From assembly GCA_012522735.1 (NCBI GenBank), contig JAAYJU010000121.1, positions 48,410 through 112,409 on the forward strand: 64,000 nucleotides of DNA, given 5' to 3'. Numbering within the stretch: position 1 is the first letter of the stretch; each line of letters begins with the position of its first letter. This DNA is from Clostridiales bacterium. GTDB taxonomy: Bacteria; Bacillota; Clostridia; Lachnospirales; Lachnospiraceae. The notes below the pieces were generated by a model. The model made no database searches. It had not been told where the DNA came from and worked only from the letters and a program-made list of their open reading frames with translations. Below, one piece after another: positions 16,074 through 26,288 of the stretch. The translations under genes were made by a program, and so were the position numbers.

Positions 16074-16415
16074 TCAGCTGTTTAAATTTTTATCAAGTTT
16101 ATCGTAGTACTTATAAAGCTTCTGTACCCCATTTTCTAAAATATAATAATGAAATATGTATGGAATTAATAGAGCCAGTAATAAAGCTGTTATTATCAAT
16201 GTTGTAATTTCAGGCCATGAGGTAAAACCAAATATTGCAATAATAGATAGAATTGCAAAGGTTGTGGTTACGATTAAGTGAATTAATCTTTCATGTTGAA
16301 AAAAACCTATCTGATTAAGCATTTCAGTTTTTAGTATATTCTTGTCATCTTCGGTCATCTTCTCATAGTCAAATCCTTCTAAGTAAGCCAAATACATTTT
16401 TATTCGGTTCTTCAT
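16074..16415 (-). CDS. Small membrane protein of unknown function, two transmembrane helices
   Basis: 113 aa with GGGGGAAG upstream of the ATG. The N-terminal 40 residues are charged and helical. Two hydrophobic segments follow (about 45-66 and 70-95), then a short cytoplasmic tail ending KYYDKLDKNLNS. I do not recognise a family. It is separated by about 100 nt from the DUF3343 gene and converges on the LacI gene, so it is probably its own unit. Confidence 0.7.
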   Translation of the reverse strand: MKNRIKMYLAYLEGFDYEKMTEDDKNILKTEMLNQIGFFQHERLIHLIVTTTFAILSIIAIFGFTSWPEITTLIITALLLALLIPYIFHYYILENGVQKLYKYYDKLDKNLNS

Positions 16416-16523
16416 TCGTACTTCCCCCTACCTTCACATATGTTTTAACTCTAAAATAATATGATGTTTCAATTCATATTCATACTAAAATTATACTTCT
16501 ATAGGTATATATTGTCAAATTAA

Positions 16524-16754
16524 TTATGATATCTCAAAAACCCCATCAAGTGGTAATCCCTTATCCTTAAGCACCTCAAGTACTCTGCTTTTATCCCCTG
16601 TGCTAATACGAAGGCAGACTCCACAGCTGGAGCTGATATGTCGAGGTATGGGTATCATCTTGGAGCTTATCCCCTCCTTACTAAGAATTTGATTTGCCTT
16701 GATAGCATAGCTTGATGAATACACCAATAAAACTGTATATTGCTTATTATTCAT
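16524..16754 (-). CDS. DUF3343 putative Se/S carrier-like protein
   Basis: 76 aa single-domain protein with a ferredoxin-like alpha/beta pattern and a conserved cysteine patch SSSCGVCLRIS at about residues 42-52. This family (putative Se/S carrier-like) is usually found beside YedE transporters and class-V aminotransferases in selenium-using anaerobes. Its ATG overlaps the stop of the aminotransferase (ATGA), so the two are coupled. The inferred role is a small carrier for reduced sulfur or selenium. The exact cargo cannot be told from sequence. Confidence 0.8.
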   Translation of the reverse strand: MNNKQYTVLLVYSSSYAIKANQILSKEGISSKMIPIPRHISSSCGVCLRISTGDKSRVLEVLKDKGLPLDGVFEIS

Positions 16755-17905
16755 ATCGTTTCCCTTGATAATCCGGCAACTGCTTCAATTGCCCTTATTA
16801 TATCATCCTCAGTATTAAAATAACTAATCCCAAATCTGACCGTACCCTCTGGGAATGTTCCTATAGTCATATGAGCCATAGGAGCACAATGTAGTCCTAT
16901 TCGACATAAAATATCATATTCTTCATCCAAACGAAGTCCTACTTCCGACGACTCCATACCTTGTATATTAAAAGAAACCACGGCTGTCTGTTCTCTTGCA
17001 TTCAATGTACCATATACAACACATCTGGGTATATCTAATAATCCATCTATTAATTGCTGGGTTAATCTAATCTCATGATTACGAATTTTATTCAAGCCTT
17101 CATGTAGTATCCAATTGATTCCTGCGGTTAATCCAGCCAGCCCCACACCGTTAATAGTGCCTGATTCCATTGCATCTGGGAGATAATCAGGCTGTTCATC
17201 ATATTCTGAATTGCTGCCTGTACCGCCTCGTAATAAGGGCCTCATATTCTTTACATTCACACACTCCCCTATTATCACTCCACCAGTCCCCGTAGGACCC
17301 AACAAGGATTTATGTCCCGTAAAGGCTAAAAGATCTATCATATCCCTCTCCATATTGATAGGAATAGAGCCCGCAGTTTGAGCAGCGTCTACCAGAAATA
17401 TTATTCCATACTTACGGCAGATACTACCTATCTCTCGAATGGGCATTATTGTCCCAACGATATTCGATGCATGATTTAAGGCTACCATCTTGGTATTTGG
17501 TCTAATATGTGCTTCTAAATCCTCTGCCTTAAGCCTTCCGCATTTATCACAGCTTACAATTGATAGCTCGACACCTTCTTTTTGAAGCTGCCTGAGTGGT
17601 CTCATCATAGAATTATGCTCCATGGAACCAGTAATGACATGATCACCCGGAAGTAGATTACCCTGAAGACACAGATTCAGGGCCTCTGTTATATTGTATC
17701 CGAATACGACGCGAAGAGGGTCGGGGGTAATGAACATCCTCGCAACTGTTTCTCTGGCTCTATAGACTGATTGCCCAGCCCTTATGGCAAGCCTGTGTCC
17801 TCCACGGCCCGGATTAGCTCCAGTATTATTTAGAAAATCCACCATAGCCCTAGCAACGCAGGGTGGTTTAGGCCATGATGTTGCAGCATTATCTAGATAT
17901 ATCAT
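16751..17905 (-). CDS. Class-V aminotransferase / cysteine desulfurase-like protein
   Basis: PLP enzyme of 384 aa resembling cysteine desulfurases and selenocysteine lyases. The N-terminus MIYLDNAATSWPKPP is typical. The PLP lysine lies in FTGHKSLLGPTG (about residue 200), followed by LLRGGTGSNSE, and a candidate catalytic Cys in GLHCAPMAH (about 343). The C-terminal FPEGTVRFGISYFNTEDD matches the EGGxR-type subfamily linked to selenium-dependent hydroxylases. It overlaps both neighbours, YedE by 17 nt and DUF3343 by 4 nt. Likely it mobilises sulfur or selenium from cysteine or selenocysteine for the carrier encoded next to it. Confidence 0.87.
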   Translation of the reverse strand: MIYLDNAATSWPKPPCVARAMVDFLNNTGANPGRGGHRLAIRAGQSVYRARETVARMFITPDPLRVVFGYNITEALNLCLQGNLLPGDHVITGSMEHNSMMRPLRQLQKEGVELSIVSCDKCGRLKAEDLEAHIRPNTKMVALNHASNIVGTIMPIREIGSICRKYGIIFLVDAAQTAGSIPINMERDMIDLLAFTGHKSLLGPTGTGGVIIGECVNVKNMRPLLRGGTGSNSEYDEQPDYLPDAMESGTINGVGLAGLTAGINWILHEGLNKIRNHEIRLTQQLIDGLLDIPRCVVYGTLNAREQTAVVSFNIQGMESSEVGLRLDEEYDILCRIGLHCAPMAHMTIGTFPEGTVRFGISYFNTEDDIIRAIEAVAGLSRETI

Positions 17906-19022
17906 TGAACTCTCCTTTACTGATTCGCATAGTCAACCCAATCACAAGACAGAAAATAAATCCTGATACCACAGTAATATTTCCTAAAATACTTAAGTCA
18001 CCTACTGTACCGCATGCCGGTCTTCCTAATAAACCAAAATTATATGTAATGGCTGCTCCACAAAGCATACCAAGCACAAAGACGGCTGCATCGGTATCTC
18101 CTTCTCCCGAAAGAAAAAGCTGTCTTCCAGCGCATCCTCCTCCCATGGTAAATGCCAGTCCGGCAAGCATCATCCCAAGCAAGCTCCAGATATACTCTAT
18201 AATCCCAGCTGGTTCAGTAGCATTATTAAAGAATACATTATATTGCCCAAGTATTAAATTCATAATAAAGGCCATAATCACCATGGCTAATATACCATAG
18301 AGATAATGTCCATTTCTAATCATGAATGCATCTCTGAAACCACCGATTGTGCAAAACCTAGATCGTTGCGCTAAAAACCCGATTACCAATCCGACTATTA
18401 TAGATATCCAAATAGGAGCATTTAGTGATGAGGGCTCGTTCCAGCTTCTAAAGGGTGCACTATAATCATTTACTCTTATATTAAAAAATAGTAATAAGAA
18501 AAGAAGTAGCATTAGACACGGGAATATTAAACCTGTAACCGTCTTTGTCTTTTTAGGGCGTTCCAAATAAAAGCCGCCCCTGATAAAAAGCACTCCCGTA
18601 AATACACCTGCTATTAAGGCTATTAATGCCAAAGCCGCATTTAGATTACCTTCAGCAAGACGCAGTAGTGTTCCAAAGGGACATCCCGTGAAGGATAGTG
18701 ATCCAATCATTGCAAAAAAGCCAAGAAAGAAACGTATAATCGGAGCAGAGCCTTCTCTTGCCTTAAACTCTCTGAATAGTACGGCTGATAGGGTTGAACC
18801 TAGTACCAGGCCGATAATCTCAGGACGTATATATTGTCCTCCTGGAGCCTGATGTAAGCCCAAGGCTCCTACTATATCTCTCTCCATACAAGCGACGCAC
18901 AGTCCTGTCTCAGGATTTCCTAATCTATGTAAAATCGGAGCAAGAATACCAATTACACAACCAGTAAATATCATGAAGCTCTTTGAACCAAAGTAATTAA
19001 TTAACCTCTTCTTATTCATCAT
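17889..19022 (-). CDS. yedE: YedE-family putative selenium/sulfur transporter
   Basis: Integral membrane protein, 377 aa, with about nine to ten transmembrane helices in two YeeE/YedE-like halves. Conserved Cys-containing motifs line the predicted channel: TGCPFGTLLR, RSRFCTIGGFRDAF, GGGCAGRQLFLSGEG and GRPACG. This family is assigned to import of selenium compounds or, in relatives, thiosulfate. It overlaps the upstream Asp-box propeller gene by 11 nt and the downstream aminotransferase by 17 nt, so all four genes form one tight operon. SelD and YedF are not in the window, so the selenium role is inference. Confidence 0.85.
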   Translation of the reverse strand: MMNKKRLINYFGSKSFMIFTGCVIGILAPILHRLGNPETGLCVACMERDIVGALGLHQAPGGQYIRPEIIGLVLGSTLSAVLFREFKAREGSAPIIRFFLGFFAMIGSLSFTGCPFGTLLRLAEGNLNAALALIALIAGVFTGVLFIRGGFYLERPKKTKTVTGLIFPCLMLLLFLLLFFNIRVNDYSAPFRSWNEPSSLNAPIWISIIVGLVIGFLAQRSRFCTIGGFRDAFMIRNGHYLYGILAMVIMAFIMNLILGQYNVFFNNATEPAGIIEYIWSLLGMMLAGLAFTMGGGCAGRQLFLSGEGDTDAAVFVLGMLCGAAITYNFGLLGRPACGTVGDLSILGNITVVSGFIFCLVIGLTMRISKGEFNDISR

Positions 19023-20115
19023 GATCTTTCATGCCATAGCGATATACCGTAACATTTTTATTATAATAACCTGTTACATAGCATCCGTCAGGAGAAAGAT
19101 ATACACTTCCTTGCCCCTTACCTATAATCTCATCCGACCAGGTCATACCTCCATCTGAAGTTCGAAAGCCGATTATTAGCGGTTCTTCCTTTCCTGTTAA
19201 GGACATCACTGCGAGAGCATTATCCTTATCAAAAAATCTTATAGCTGTCGAGGCCCCCTCAAACTTTCCAATCTTATATCCATCATAGCCTTCCTTTATA
19301 GGAAGTGCCGAATCGGTCCAGCTCTCTCCATGATCCTTGGTGATATATAGGATTCCATCACCTGACAGCACACTTCCAAAAAAATCATCACCAGCTTCAT
19401 ATACTCCTATTCCGGCTATTTTACCCAAACCCTCAGGAAGTTTGATTTCATTGAAGTTCAATCCCCCGTCCCTTGTCTCGCTGATGACGCCATCCTGGCT
19501 AACCCAGCCCCTCATATCATCAAGAAAGCTTAGAGGACATGTACTTGGTCCTGTCTTGAAATCTAAGGTATCACCAAGTGTTTTTCCACCGTCAGTACTC
19601 ATCCTCAATCCTCCGGGAGTCCTAAAGCTCATCCCGGTCATTTTTCCACATATCCAGACGATATTGCTATCTACTATCTCTACACCAAAGATGCAGCCAC
19701 CACTCCCCTCATTTATGGTCCAAGACTCTCCTCCATTCGTAGTATAACAGGTCTTTCCTGCCCCACTAAAGCCTCCGGTTATTCCAAAGCTCTCATTGAG
19801 AAAGGCTGCCATTCTTACAGGCTGTTTTACGTTCAACTCTAGTGTTACATTCCATGCTTCTTTATTCTCGGCTTCGCTTATATCTTGAGCGTCTGAATCA
19901 TCGACGGATGCTATGTCTTCCGATTCCTCTGAATCATCTATATCATCTATATCTTTTGATACTTCTGTCAAATCATCTGTGTTCTTAGCATCCTCTATAA
20001 GAACCTCCTTCTCCTTACCATCCTTGTTAAGTCTCACTAGAATACCTATTAGAACTCCAATAACCACTATACATAATACTGCAATTGTTATTACTTTAGC
20101 CCTTAAGTACTTCAA
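19012..20115 (-). CDS. Membrane-anchored Asp-box (YCF48/BNR-like) beta-propeller protein
   Basis: Predicted extracytoplasmic protein, about 367 aa. The track start at 20160 is too early. AGGAGG sits 8 nt before an in-frame TTG at 20115, giving MKYLRAKVI. One transmembrane anchor (about residues 5-25) is followed by a very acidic linker (about 35-90, rich in Asp, Glu and Ser). Then come at least five Asp-box repeats (TTNGGESW, STDGGKTL, TRDGGLNF, TKDHGESW, TSDGGMTW), which mark a sialidase-like or YCF48-like propeller. It overlaps yedE and leads the selenium/sulfur operon. Such a partner is not part of the usual module, and its function is unknown. Confidence 0.8.
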   Translation of the reverse strand: MKYLRAKVITIAVLCIVVIGVLIGILVRLNKDGKEKEVLIEDAKNTDDLTEVSKDIDDIDDSEESEDIASVDDSDAQDISEAENKEAWNVTLELNVKQPVRMAAFLNESFGITGGFSGAGKTCYTTNGGESWTINEGSGGCIFGVEIVDSNIVWICGKMTGMSFRTPGGLRMSTDGGKTLGDTLDFKTGPSTCPLSFLDDMRGWVSQDGVISETRDGGLNFNEIKLPEGLGKIAGIGVYEAGDDFFGSVLSGDGILYITKDHGESWTDSALPIKEGYDGYKIGKFEGASTAIRFFDKDNALAVMSLTGKEEPLIIGFRTSDGGMTWSDEIIGKGQGSVYLSPDGCYVTGYYNKNVTVYRYGMKDHDE

Positions 20116-20274: not shown

Positions 20275-23031
20275 TTAGTTTATTAGCTCAAGCTCGCGTC
20301 CAATTACTATAGCCTGAGTACGATTATTGACATTAAACTTTTCAAAAATGTGATATACATGAGATTTTACAGTATAAACTGTAATCACCAGCTCCTCAGA
20401 AATTTCTCTATTGGAATATCCAAGAGCTATAAGCCTTAGAATTTCTAGTTCCCTTATACTTAAGGGTTCCTTCAAGATACCCTCTTTTCTATAATTAATC
20501 AGACTCTCATAATGAACTCCCCACAGTTCACTAAGACTCTCCATGACATGCTGAATGAAACGAGGCTTTATTTTTCGCTTTATTGCTACACTAAGCTGTG
20601 GAAGTATCTGTTGTCCTTCGTTAATAAAGACCCCCACACAACCGCTCCTTTCTCCTATCTCTAGTGCTTCATGGAAGAAGATCATTGATTTATCTATGTC
20701 TCCTTGAACATACATAAGCTTTGTTTTAAGTACAAGCACTTCTATTTCCCATGTAATGCAATCACAAGACCTCGCATCTAACTGTTGATGATTCAGATAA
20801 TTCATAAGCGTGTTCCAATCATATACAGGTGGAATGAGCTTTAGCCTGTACATGTCAATGAGAACACGAATTGCTGTATAATGGATTATATCTGGTTTCA
20901 AGGTTTTATTGACCTTAATAAAGTCCAGGCTTTGCTCCTTTAGCCATTGCTCAGCATCCTTCATCAATGTAATATCAGAATCAGCCGCCATAAGACAAAG
21001 TCTTGCCCTATGAGCAGACACCTCATCACCTCCCTGTATCCAATAACATACAGCTTCATTAATCATTTGCATAGCCTTGCTTGTATCGAGATATGCCTGA
21101 TAAATATATGCAAGCAATATATAACCCCATTGCTGATGCTGTCCTGCACTTGTATAGCTTAATAATTCAATACTTTTCCTTATGCTTTCCTCTGCTTTGT
21201 CAAGCTTCCCTGTTTCAAATTGAATTTTACCTAGTTCATAATAAATTGTTCCCGAAAAAGGAACCATATGTCCTCTCGATAATCCTCTTATATAAGCGAT
21301 TCCCTCATTACAAATATCTGCCGCCTTAATAAGACAGCCTCTTCTATACATAATATCTGCCATATGTTCAATTGCTGCCGAGACATTAAGCCAATCACCG
21401 CTCTCCTTCCCAATCTGCCTAACATTCTCAAAAGCATCTATAGCCGCCTTCATATCACCGGATAGAAAATATGCTCTTCCTAACGCATACATCATAGCAC
21501 ATCGAAACATCAACTCATTCTCAGGAAGTTCCTCCAGAGCAAATAATGTCATCCTTATAAGCTCATCAAGATCGGATCTAGAAAATAATGCATAATAAAT
21601 TCTTAGCTTTCTAATGTAATGAGGTAGTAATATATATTCCCTGTTCATTGATCTGTTTAAATCAAATTTATCTATATTCGCCTCGGCATTTTTAAGCCAA
21701 TATTCTATAAGCACCCTAGTCTCATTCTTTTTAATCATCTCTCTATTGGCCAGTAGAAGACAATTCGCATATGCCGCTGAGAGTAGTGGACTCGATTCCA
21801 CATATGTTGCTGGTAATTCCTTAAGCCATCCAAAAACTAGCTGTGTTTCGCTACGATAAAACGTATTCCATAGATTGTGCTCTATCAGTTCTGATGCACG
21901 ATCATATAGCTTAGACTTCATTGCATAGGCTATAGCCTCATGGACTAAGTCATTCTTCTCGCACCAGCTTATTATTTGAAAGTAAAGCTCTTGCACCTCT
22001 TGCTCTGAGGATTCTTGCATAAGCTGTCTTCTTAAAAAATCCGAGAAAAGATTATGGTAGCGAAACCATTCCCTTTTGTTATCAACAGAAAACAAGAAAA
22101 GATTCGATCTCTCCAGTCTCTCAAGTATAGACTGGCTGTCCTTAGCCTTTAACAACTCATTGCATAGGGAAGCGCATAGCCTGTCCATTATAGATGTCTT
22201 TATCAAAAAATCTTTTATCCCCTGTGATTGCTTGCCAAGAACCACCTCTGCCATATAATCAAATACGTATCTGTCATCTCCAACAAACTCAGTAACGAAT
22301 CTGTGCTTATCCAACGAATCTAAGGATTCAAGGCTAAGAGTAGCCATCTGTATACCTGCAATCCAACCCTCTGTCAGCTCTTCCAGTCTCTTCACATCAG
22401 AGATATCCAGACTGATATCTAGGTAATCCTTCAAAAGATTATAGATCTCATTCTGTGAAAACCGAAGCTCTGAATAGGATATATCAGTTATATTAAGGTT
22501 AGCCCTTAGTCTTGATAAGCATAAAGGTGGCTTTTCTCTTGATATAATCACCAGATGTAGATTGTTAGGTATATGATTGAGAAAATAATCTAAAGAGGTA
22601 TGAACCTCGCTATTTATAATTTCATGGTAATCATCCAAAACGAGTATCACCTGCTGCTTGAAATCAGAGATATCTCTGATTAGCATATTTATAATATTAT
22701 CTTGCCAAGGTTCATCAAGGGAATGTAATACAGACCGAAGGCCAAAACCTATGTCGTCACTAACTGATCTAAAAGCATATATAATATATTCCCAAAACCC
22801 TTGAAGATTATTATCACCTGCATCAAGAGAAACCCAAGCAATGGGTAGCTGTGCTTCATTGATCCATTGACTTACCAGGGTTGTCTTACCCGAGCCTGCC
22901 AGGGACGTAACAAGAAATATTCTATTACCTCTAATTAAGCCATTGTTCAGCTTTTCGACTAATGGCTTACGTTCTATGATTCCCTCCCTTAGAAGAGGTG
23001 CACTTATCTTGCTAGGTATTAAATGATTCAT
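20275..23031 (-). CDS. MalT-like LuxR-family ATP-dependent transcriptional regulator (LAL type)
   Basis: Large STAND-type activator, 918 aa. An N-terminal NTPase has Walker A SLAGSGKTT (about residues 43-51) and Walker B VILVLDDYH (about 127-135). A long alpha-helical TPR-like sensor occupies about residues 350-830. A C-terminal LuxR helix-turn-helix (LSIRELEILRLIALGYSNREIS, then VKSHVYHIFEKFNV) lies in the last 65 residues. Start supported by GGGAG. The family oligomerises on ATP and an inducer to activate sugar or secondary-metabolism genes. It is flanked by a terminator and has no obvious target operator here, so its regulon is unknown. Confidence 0.92.
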   Translation of the reverse strand: MNHLIPSKISAPLLREGIIERKPLVEKLNNGLIRGNRIFLVTSLAGSGKTTLVSQWINEAQLPIAWVSLDAGDNNLQGFWEYIIYAFRSVSDDIGFGLRSVLHSLDEPWQDNIINMLIRDISDFKQQVILVLDDYHEIINSEVHTSLDYFLNHIPNNLHLVIISREKPPLCLSRLRANLNITDISYSELRFSQNEIYNLLKDYLDISLDISDVKRLEELTEGWIAGIQMATLSLESLDSLDKHRFVTEFVGDDRYVFDYMAEVVLGKQSQGIKDFLIKTSIMDRLCASLCNELLKAKDSQSILERLERSNLFLFSVDNKREWFRYHNLFSDFLRRQLMQESSEQEVQELYFQIISWCEKNDLVHEAIAYAMKSKLYDRASELIEHNLWNTFYRSETQLVFGWLKELPATYVESSPLLSAAYANCLLLANREMIKKNETRVLIEYWLKNAEANIDKFDLNRSMNREYILLPHYIRKLRIYYALFSRSDLDELIRMTLFALEELPENELMFRCAMMYALGRAYFLSGDMKAAIDAFENVRQIGKESGDWLNVSAAIEHMADIMYRRGCLIKAADICNEGIAYIRGLSRGHMVPFSGTIYYELGKIQFETGKLDKAEESIRKSIELLSYTSAGQHQQWGYILLAYIYQAYLDTSKAMQMINEAVCYWIQGGDEVSAHRARLCLMAADSDITLMKDAEQWLKEQSLDFIKVNKTLKPDIIHYTAIRVLIDMYRLKLIPPVYDWNTLMNYLNHQQLDARSCDCITWEIEVLVLKTKLMYVQGDIDKSMIFFHEALEIGERSGCVGVFINEGQQILPQLSVAIKRKIKPRFIQHVMESLSELWGVHYESLINYRKEGILKEPLSIRELEILRLIALGYSNREISEELVITVYTVKSHVYHIFEKFNVNNRTQAIVIGRELELIN

Positions 23032-25502: not shown

Positions 25503-26288
25503 ATGTATACAAAACATGACCTTATGGATTCCATAATAAAGATCGGAATATTGCCAACAGACACCTTACTTGTGCATTCCTCTATGAAAGCTATAGGCGA
25601 GGTCGAAGGTGGTGCCGATACTGTATTAGATGCATTTATTGATTATATGCATGAGGATGGACTTTTGATTTTTCCAACTCATACCTGGGAACAGATTAAT
25701 GATGAATATAATGTATATAATCCTCTAACAGAGCCTTCCTGTGTGGGACTTTTGACAAATCTTTTTCTTAAGAGACCAGGTGTGATTCGTTCGCTACATC
25801 CTACGCATTCTGTCGCCGCTCTAGGTAGGGATGCAGCAGAATATACCTCTGGGGAGGAGCAATTTGATACACCCTGTTCAAGATATGGTTGCTGGGGAAA
25901 GCTCTATGATAGAAAAGCTAAAATACTCTTTCTCGGATGTAGCCTAAAAAAGAATACCTTTATACATGGTGTAGAAGAATGGAATCAGATACCTCATCGC
26001 CTAATGGATAAACCAAGACAGCTAAAAATCATAGCCTATGATGGAAGCATTATTGACCGTCCGTTTTATTCTCACTATTTCCCTGATGGAGATGTTTCTT
26101 ATAATTACGATAAGATGCTAATTCCATTATTACACTATGGAGTTGCTACAAAAGGTATGATAGGAGATGCTGAAAGTGTCCTATGTGACGCTATAGGAAT
26201 GGCCGAGATAACTACAGAATTCCTGCAAAGAAACCCGAAATTGTTCGAGGATGGTAATCCCATATCTGAAGATTGGTATATAAATTAA
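25503..26288 (+). CDS. Aminoglycoside 3-N-acetyltransferase-like protein (AAC(3) family)
   Basis: 261 aa cytosolic acetyl-CoA-dependent acetyltransferase of the antibiotic_NAT family, which modifies the 3-amino group of aminoglycosides. Family motifs: LLVHSSMKAIG near residue 22, LLIFPTHTW, IRSLHPTHSVAALG (about 96-109, with the conserved His pair) and ILFLGCSLKKNTFIH. Length is normal. The ribosome site is weak (AGGT). Chromosomal relatives (YokD-like) are often not resistance enzymes. It stands alone between GGTGCC palindromes and a terminator, compatible with cassette-like acquisition, though codon use looks ordinary. Confidence 0.88.
   Translation: MYTKHDLMDSIIKIGILPTDTLLVHSSMKAIGEVEGGADTVLDAFIDYMHEDGLLIFPTHTWEQINDEYNVYNPLTEPSCVGLLTNLFLKRPGVIRSLHPTHSVAALGRDAAEYTSGEEQFDTPCSRYGCWGKLYDRKAKILFLGCSLKKNTFIHGVEEWNQIPHRLMDKPRQLKIIAYDGSIIDRPFYSHYFPDGDVSYNYDKMLIPLLHYGVATKGMIGDAESVLCDAIGMAEITTEFLQRNPKLFEDGNPISEDWYIN

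Follow-up and report, generated by a model that had tools for sequence, protein, structure and literature searches.

What does an Asp-box beta-propeller do when its gene is joined to those of a YedE-family membrane protein, a class-V pyridoxal 5'-phosphate (PLP) enzyme and a small DUF3343 protein? The question is raised by a stretch of 64,000 nucleotides from a Clostridiales bacterium of the Lachnospiraceae (assembly GCA_012522735.1, contig JAAYJU010000121.1), termed the window in the following, on the minus strand of which these four genes overlap head to tail. As far as sequences can tell, the link between the propeller and the YedE module is genuine and conserved across five genomes of three phyla including that of the window, strong though not absolute. 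The gene set is a rare but genuine variant, found across phyla, of a known module, and its outer partner, new to the module, probably carries out cysteine or selenocysteine (Sec) chemistry.

Composition and occurrence of the propeller module

In full agreement with a preliminary description made from the DNA alone, the genes for propeller and yedE overlap by 11 nt (19012-19022), those for yedE and the class-V enzyme by 17 nt (17889-17905) and those for the class-V enzyme and the DUF3343 protein by 4 nt (16751-16754). The family assignments given there are likewise borne out: YedE reaches 369 bits with the seleno_YedE profile TIGR04112 (curated cut-off 200), the class-V enzyme 478 bits with TIGR01977 (cut-off 377) and the DUF3343 protein, the single copy found in the genome, 73 bits with PF11823 (cut-off 25), its conserved cysteine C44 being invariant. 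The class-V enzyme contains the motifs GHKSLLGP, with the lysine, and RIGLHCAPMAH, with the cysteine, stays below the cut-off for the selenocysteine lyase SclA (NF040779, 386 vs. 525 bits) and has SufS-type desulfurases as its nearest solved structures. A TusA/YedF-type gene is present beside yedE neither in the window nor at any of the other module loci. The propeller, which starts with a TTG codon at position 20115 preceded by AGGAGG, had been described as extracytoplasmic, acidic-linked and equipped with five Asp boxes, and the sequence agrees: a predicted N-terminal helix is followed by a linker rich in Asp and Glu (24 of 58 residues) and by exactly five boxes at residues 125, 173, 214, 259 and 319. 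Its BNR repeats score 24.5 bits, slightly below the Pfam cut-off of 27, NCBIfam offers no specific model for it, and the predicted structure has a predicted local distance difference test score (pLDDT) below 50 across residues 31-85. In the homologues from Spirochaetales (L060) and Anaerolineae (L061) lipobox-like N-termini (LAGC and similar) replace the helix. The four members of the set were correctly named, but the set was incomplete, as the LuxR/MalT-type regulator encoded ahead of the propeller belongs to it; such a regulator also precedes propeller and yedE in Mobilitalea (L046/L057) and in a Bacillota metagenome-assembled genome (MAG), AS08 (L058).

A scan of named genomes with two exact peptide patterns, an approach that undercounts, yielded five further propeller loci in four genomes of three phyla, i.e., in Mobilitalea sibirica, on two contigs of the Bacillota MAG AS08, and in one Spirochaetales and one Anaerolineae MAG. 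At all five the propeller gene adjoins yedE or the class-V/DUF3343 pair, an outcome that favors linkage over the alternative named beforehand, a propeller residing beside unrelated genes in relatives. Among relatives, a single further species of the genus proved to have an orthologous propeller, with 55% identity; judging by identical sequence it is the Mobilitalea sibirica of the scan, and the order regulator-propeller-yedE-class V-DUF3343 is fully kept in it. In a third member of the genus, yedE, class-V and DUF3343 genes lie at a contig end and the neighborhood where a propeller gene could reside is off the contig. Propellers from other phyla are 35-46% identical, and in the Anaerolineae module (L061) three tandem propellers are followed by the class-V, DUF3343 and yedE genes. 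Within this family and order, 49 further yedE loci, each viewed with about 1.5 kb of flanking DNA on either side of yedE, all lack the propeller. This agrees with the earlier view that the propeller is novel in this setting and leads us to reject a Lachnospiraceae-wide pairing with yedE, the conservation of which had been put forward for checking. Among 396 genomes of the class of the Anaerolineae MAG only four contain a propeller match, two of them weak, and two distant Anaerolineae propellers have no yedE nearby, one of these being located at a contig end. The propeller-equipped module is rare and patchy in its distribution. Spread by plasmids or viruses was considered and rejected, as the propeller found no match in plasmids and viral contigs.

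Phylogenetic analysis, for which the YedE comparison set was restricted to Lachnospiraceae, placed the module YedEs together with two Anaerolineae YedEs that are paired with TusA-like genes in a group (100/100) apart from 30 ordinary Lachnospiraceae YedEs. The class-V enzymes of the module form a clade (100/98), and module-type propellers constitute a clade of ten (97/95) apart from a wider propeller family. Members of this wider family that reside next to AraC-type regulator genes recur in Lachnospiraceae and Spirochaetes (L048-L051, L053, L056, L098, L104), including contigs C12 and C198 of the window genome. The known SelD-linked module (YedE of TIGR04112, YedF/SirA-like protein, Sec lyase and DUF3343; Lin et al. 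2015, PMC5322559) likewise clusters genes of the YedE, class-V and DUF3343 families; the window module differs from it by the additional propeller, the lack of an adjacent TusA/YedF gene, the separate grouping of its YedE and class-V proteins and the fact that four of its five hosts have no selD over the cut-off.

YedE proteins of the TIGR04112 type are circularly permuted with respect to TsuA/YeeE, the C-terminal half matching the N-terminal half of TsuA (PDB 6leo) and vice versa, and with its halves permuted the window YedE scores only 43.6 bits with the TsuA profile (NF052577, cut-off 400). Residues C114 and C297 align, in permuted order, with Cys293 and Cys91 of TsuA, respectively, both of which are indispensable there (PMC11582611). 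Module YedEs from Bacillota and Spirochaetota feature the motif GCPxG, with a glycine three residues past C114 that is also present in TsuA, whereas ordinary YedEs have arginine at this position (GCPxR). The module resembles TsuA/TsuB (YeeE/YeeD, PDB 6leo/8j4c) in the paired conserved cysteines within glycine-rich motifs of YedE and differs from it not only in the permutation but also in the occurrence of DUF3343 in place of the TusA-like TsuB and of a propeller outside. A single-chain structure prediction of YedE (pLDDT 43) was too poor for use.

A conserved propeller cysteine and in-frame TGA codons

The seven module propellers of the first alignment share a single invariant cysteine, C141. 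In the wider family, too, the site is occupied by cysteine in all but three of the members that cover it, the two genes described next set aside. The middle one of the three tandem propeller genes in the Anaerolineae MAG (G632) contains one in-frame TGA that coincides exactly with the C141 codon (TSGG-TGA-IYSLDIV) and is followed by an open frame up to a TAG, and the orthologous gene in a second Anaerolineae genome, G669, has its in-frame TGA in the same alignment column. Downstream of the TGA the two genes differ by 0.076 nonsynonymous (dN) and 0.53 synonymous (dS) substitutions per site (dN/dS about 0.14), and 46 of 64 codons with a single change are synonymous compared with 18 expected, a value not reached in any of 2000 simulations. 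A sequencing error or gene decay is rejected on the grounds that the same TGA occurs in two assemblies and is followed by sequence under strong purifying selection, and a reassigned code is disfavored by neighboring genes on the same contigs that terminate at TGA. The SelD protein of G632 is itself encoded with an in-frame TGA (CAG-TGA-ASK).

Because TGA takes the place of a conserved cysteine codon in two genomes and purifying selection continues behind it, the Anaerolineae protein is very probably a real selenoprotein and one that has not been catalogued. In this replacement it resembles the members of the 2026 inventory of prokaryotic selenoproteins (PMC13188914), the 119 families of which (Table 1) include no propeller, BNR or Ycf48-like family by name, while a YeeE/YedE family member with the motif GUxSG is listed. 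A literature search for a propeller associated with YedE and for selenoproteins with BNR repeats returned nothing relevant. With a Sec-containing propeller, the list of selenoproteins would gain a new fold class.

Through the probable exchange of cysteine for Sec, evolution by itself points to this residue as the likely site of catalysis or binding. Since a nearly universal cysteine codon is swapped for TGA in two relatives, C141 appears to be a working residue, and the propeller is likely to perform Cys/Sec chemistry that goes beyond the role of a scaffold or dock. Of the earlier proposal that the propeller is a partner of YedE and may deliver or dock a selenium or sulfur compound to it, the partnership is upheld by the five linked loci, while the cysteine and its replacement by TGA make the propeller probably more than a dock. 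With C141 as the only invariant cysteine of module propellers an internal disulfide is unlikely, which suggests a persulfide or selenosulfide carrier or a one-thiol reductant as the better fit.

Cargo and function of the module

The preliminary description had reported SelD as missing from the window and had asked whether the genome carries selD. No match over the cut-off exists in the entire 92%-complete assembly either (best match 85 bits, cut-off 125), as opposed to the other YedE-bearing members of the family: among 250 Lachnospiraceae, 42 genomes exceed the TIGR04112 cut-off, and selD is present in 41 of 41 besides that of the window. The "occurs with SelD" that belongs to TIGR04112 does not apply to the window genome. 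Neither was selD over the cut-off found in Mobilitalea, the Bacillota MAG AS08 or the Spirochaetales MAG, an absence that is weaker evidence in incomplete MAGs than in Mobilitalea (99% complete, G262), and the Anaerolineae MAG G632 is the sole selD-positive genome among the five module hosts. While YedE-bearing organisms almost all contain SelD (Lin et al. 2015, PMC5322559), the YedE lineage of the propeller module is an exception to this co-occurrence. Selenium use in the window host is rejected as unlikely for want of selD over the cut-off. Because of this lack, and because GCPxG is nearer to TsuA, sulfur is probably the cargo in the window host, and probably so in the other selD-lacking hosts.

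The reading that we favor, and to which we give an even chance, is that of a propeller-equipped YedE/class-V desulfurase/DUF3343 chalcogen module, in which a thiol or selenol partner on the outer face exchanges sulfur or selenium with YedE. It builds on what the sequences show, namely the make-up of the gene set, the fact that three phyla conserve it, the split from selD-linked Lachnospiraceae modules and the Cys/TGA exchange, from which we infer the relay itself. The propeller would be held on the outer face by its membrane helix or a lipid, and its Cys/Sec would either accept an atom of sulfane sulfur or of selenium or reduce a chalcogen compound, and would pass the atom to YedE or receive it from there. 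YedE may conduct the atom along a path of conserved cysteines as in the thiosulfate transporter TsuA, and inside the cell the DUF3343 cysteine could stand in for the usual TusA-type acceptor and exchange the atom with the class-V desulfurase/selenocysteine lyase. The atom would most likely be sulfur in hosts lacking selD and selenium or sulfur in the Sec-using Anaerolineae. Sulfur is transported into the cell by SoxT/YeeE proteins, for which SoxS, a thiol protein of the outer face, and a carrier on the inside have been proposed as partners (PMC11582611). The module matches SoxT1A/SoxT1B with SoxS in combining a YeeE-like protein and a proposed outer-face thiol protein for sulfur import or signaling, although SoxS differs from a propeller in being a thiol-disulfide oxidoreductase and is part of a different gene cluster (PMC11582611). 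We weakly favor import over export. More tentatively, as a possibility that falls short of being probable, we propose a trans-envelope chalcogen relay with a Cys/Sec beta-propeller as its outer part that would handle selenium in Sec-decoding hosts and sulfur in those without selD; the protein would then be without precedent both as a selenoprotein with a propeller fold and as a partner of YedE on the outer face.

Several points weigh against the exchange of chalcogen between propeller and YedE. The direction of the relay, its substrate and contact between the two proteins are all inferred. One propeller of the module clade occurs without yedE behind a LuxR/MalT-type regulator in the Anaerolineae genome G632 (L113:634-4862), YedEs of the module group in G632 and G669 have a TusA-like gene as partner and lack a propeller (L124:9043-10394, L125:6965-8482), and the wider propeller family (about 33% identity) adjoins AraC-type regulators, not YedE. 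A SECIS-like hairpin with a GUG loop past the propeller TGA is not stronger than in shuffled sequence. Furthermore, deletion of yedE in Methanococcus maripaludis caused no clear selenium phenotype (PMC11097638).

The best fold match of the propeller in the PDB is Ycf48 (E 7e-10), an Asp-box propeller crystallized with a D1 peptide. Ycf48 assists assembly of the membrane protein D1. The propeller shares with Ycf48/HCF136 (5oj5, 2xbg) the fold, the Asp boxes and the placement outside the membrane. An assembly or stability factor of this kind, which folds or protects YedE at the membrane and has no chemistry of its own, would also agree with weak Ycf48 profile matches and the overlap of the propeller and yedE genes. 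The likeness is one of fold only: with 22 of the 326 bits demanded by the family profile (NF010237), membership in the Ycf48 family is ruled out, and the propeller has a nearly universal Cys/Sec of its own. That two genomes have a Sec codon in place of this cysteine is unexpected for a passive scaffold, and ordinary YedEs do without the propeller (0 of 49 loci). We consider an assembly factor unlikely, although the fold match to Ycf48, which acts in assembly on the outer face, makes a purely structural role a reasonable alternative.

Improbable, too, is export or detoxification, in which the class-V and DUF3343 proteins would free excess sulfur or selenium, YedE would export it and the propeller thiol or selenol would capture or dispose of it outside. 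Enzymes of the class-V family produce, and do not consume, sulfane sulfur, which counts in favor of export, as does the fact that no use of selenium which the module could supply is known in hosts without selD. Export has already been proposed for YedE (PMC5322559), but the characterized relatives TsuA and SoxT1A import (PMC11582611), and a link to toxicity is not seen in the sequence.

The regulator gene suggests a further role, namely that propeller and YedE together inform the LuxR/MalT-type protein of a sulfur species outside the cell. The regulator is encoded upstream in the window, Mobilitalea and AS08 and also before the yedE-less Anaerolineae propeller (L113), and wider propellers adjoin AraC regulators. 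MalT-type regulators, however, are usually sensors of cytoplasmic ligands. A regulator gene is absent next to the Spirochaetales module (L060) and from the examined stretch of the Anaerolineae module (L061). Even with the precedent of SoxT1B, which acts in this manner for SoxR (PMC11582611), a signaling unit is distinctly improbable. Hitch-hiking by horizontal transfer, with the propeller as a surface protein that has nothing to do with the module, would suit the rare, patchy distribution but is highly improbable in view of the partners shared by three phyla despite differing gene orders, the tandem amplification of propellers in Anaerolineae and the separate grouping of the parts in trees.

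A dedicated selenium transporter is established in no organism (PMC11097638), and the earlier tie of YedE to selenium rested mainly on co-occurrence with SelD. A selD-less YedE lineage with an outer-face Cys/Sec partner constitutes a natural experiment that can separate sulfur from selenium function, in which the propeller offers an accessible protein for testing the substrate of YedE. Such tests are feasible, as the full gene set is present in a named strain, Mobilitalea sibirica DSM 26468.

Coordinates and neighboring sequences

Coordinates of the propeller module and of TGA-containing homologues (window positions unless a locus is given).
Feature	Position	Strand	Remarks
Asp-box beta-propeller, 367 aa, extracytoplasmic	19012..20115	-	BNR/Asp-box match, five boxes, N-terminal helix, acidic linker
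YedE-family membrane protein, module subclade	17889..19022	-	TIGR04112, 369 bits
Class-V PLP enzyme, cysteine desulfurase/selenocysteine lyase-like	16751..17905	-	TIGR01977, 478 bits
DUF3343/Se_S_carrier small protein	16524..16754	-	PF11823, 73 bits; CGVC motif
LuxR/MalT-type STAND regulator, ahead of propeller	20275..23031	-	TPR_MalT and GerE matches
Propeller, N-terminal membrane helix, residues 2-32	20020..20112	-	single predicted helix
Propeller, acidic linker, residues 29-86	19858..20031	-	Asp/Glu 24 of 58 residues
Asp box 1, TTNGGESW	19720..19743	-	motif in propeller
Propeller, Cys141 codon (SGGC)	19693..19695	-	invariant in module propellers; TGA in two Anaerolineae homologues
Asp box 2, STDGGKTL	19576..19599	-	motif in propeller
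Asp box 3, TRDGGLNF	19453..19476	-	motif in propeller
Asp box 4, TKDHGESW	19318..19341	-	motif in propeller
Asp box 5, TSDGGMTW	19138..19161	-	motif in propeller
TGA-containing propeller, G632	L061:1377-2348	+	in-frame TGA at C141 codon
TGA-containing propeller, G669	L112:172-1125	-	in-frame TGA at C141 codon

Just 3' of the DUF3343 gene, a perfect sigma-70 consensus (TTGACA, 17 nt, TATAAT) is present on the minus strand at 16490-16518 and points at an open reading frame of 113 aa (16074-16415). On the plus strand, a gene of the aminoglycoside 3-N-acetyltransferase family (PF02522, 201 bits) occupies positions 25503-26288.

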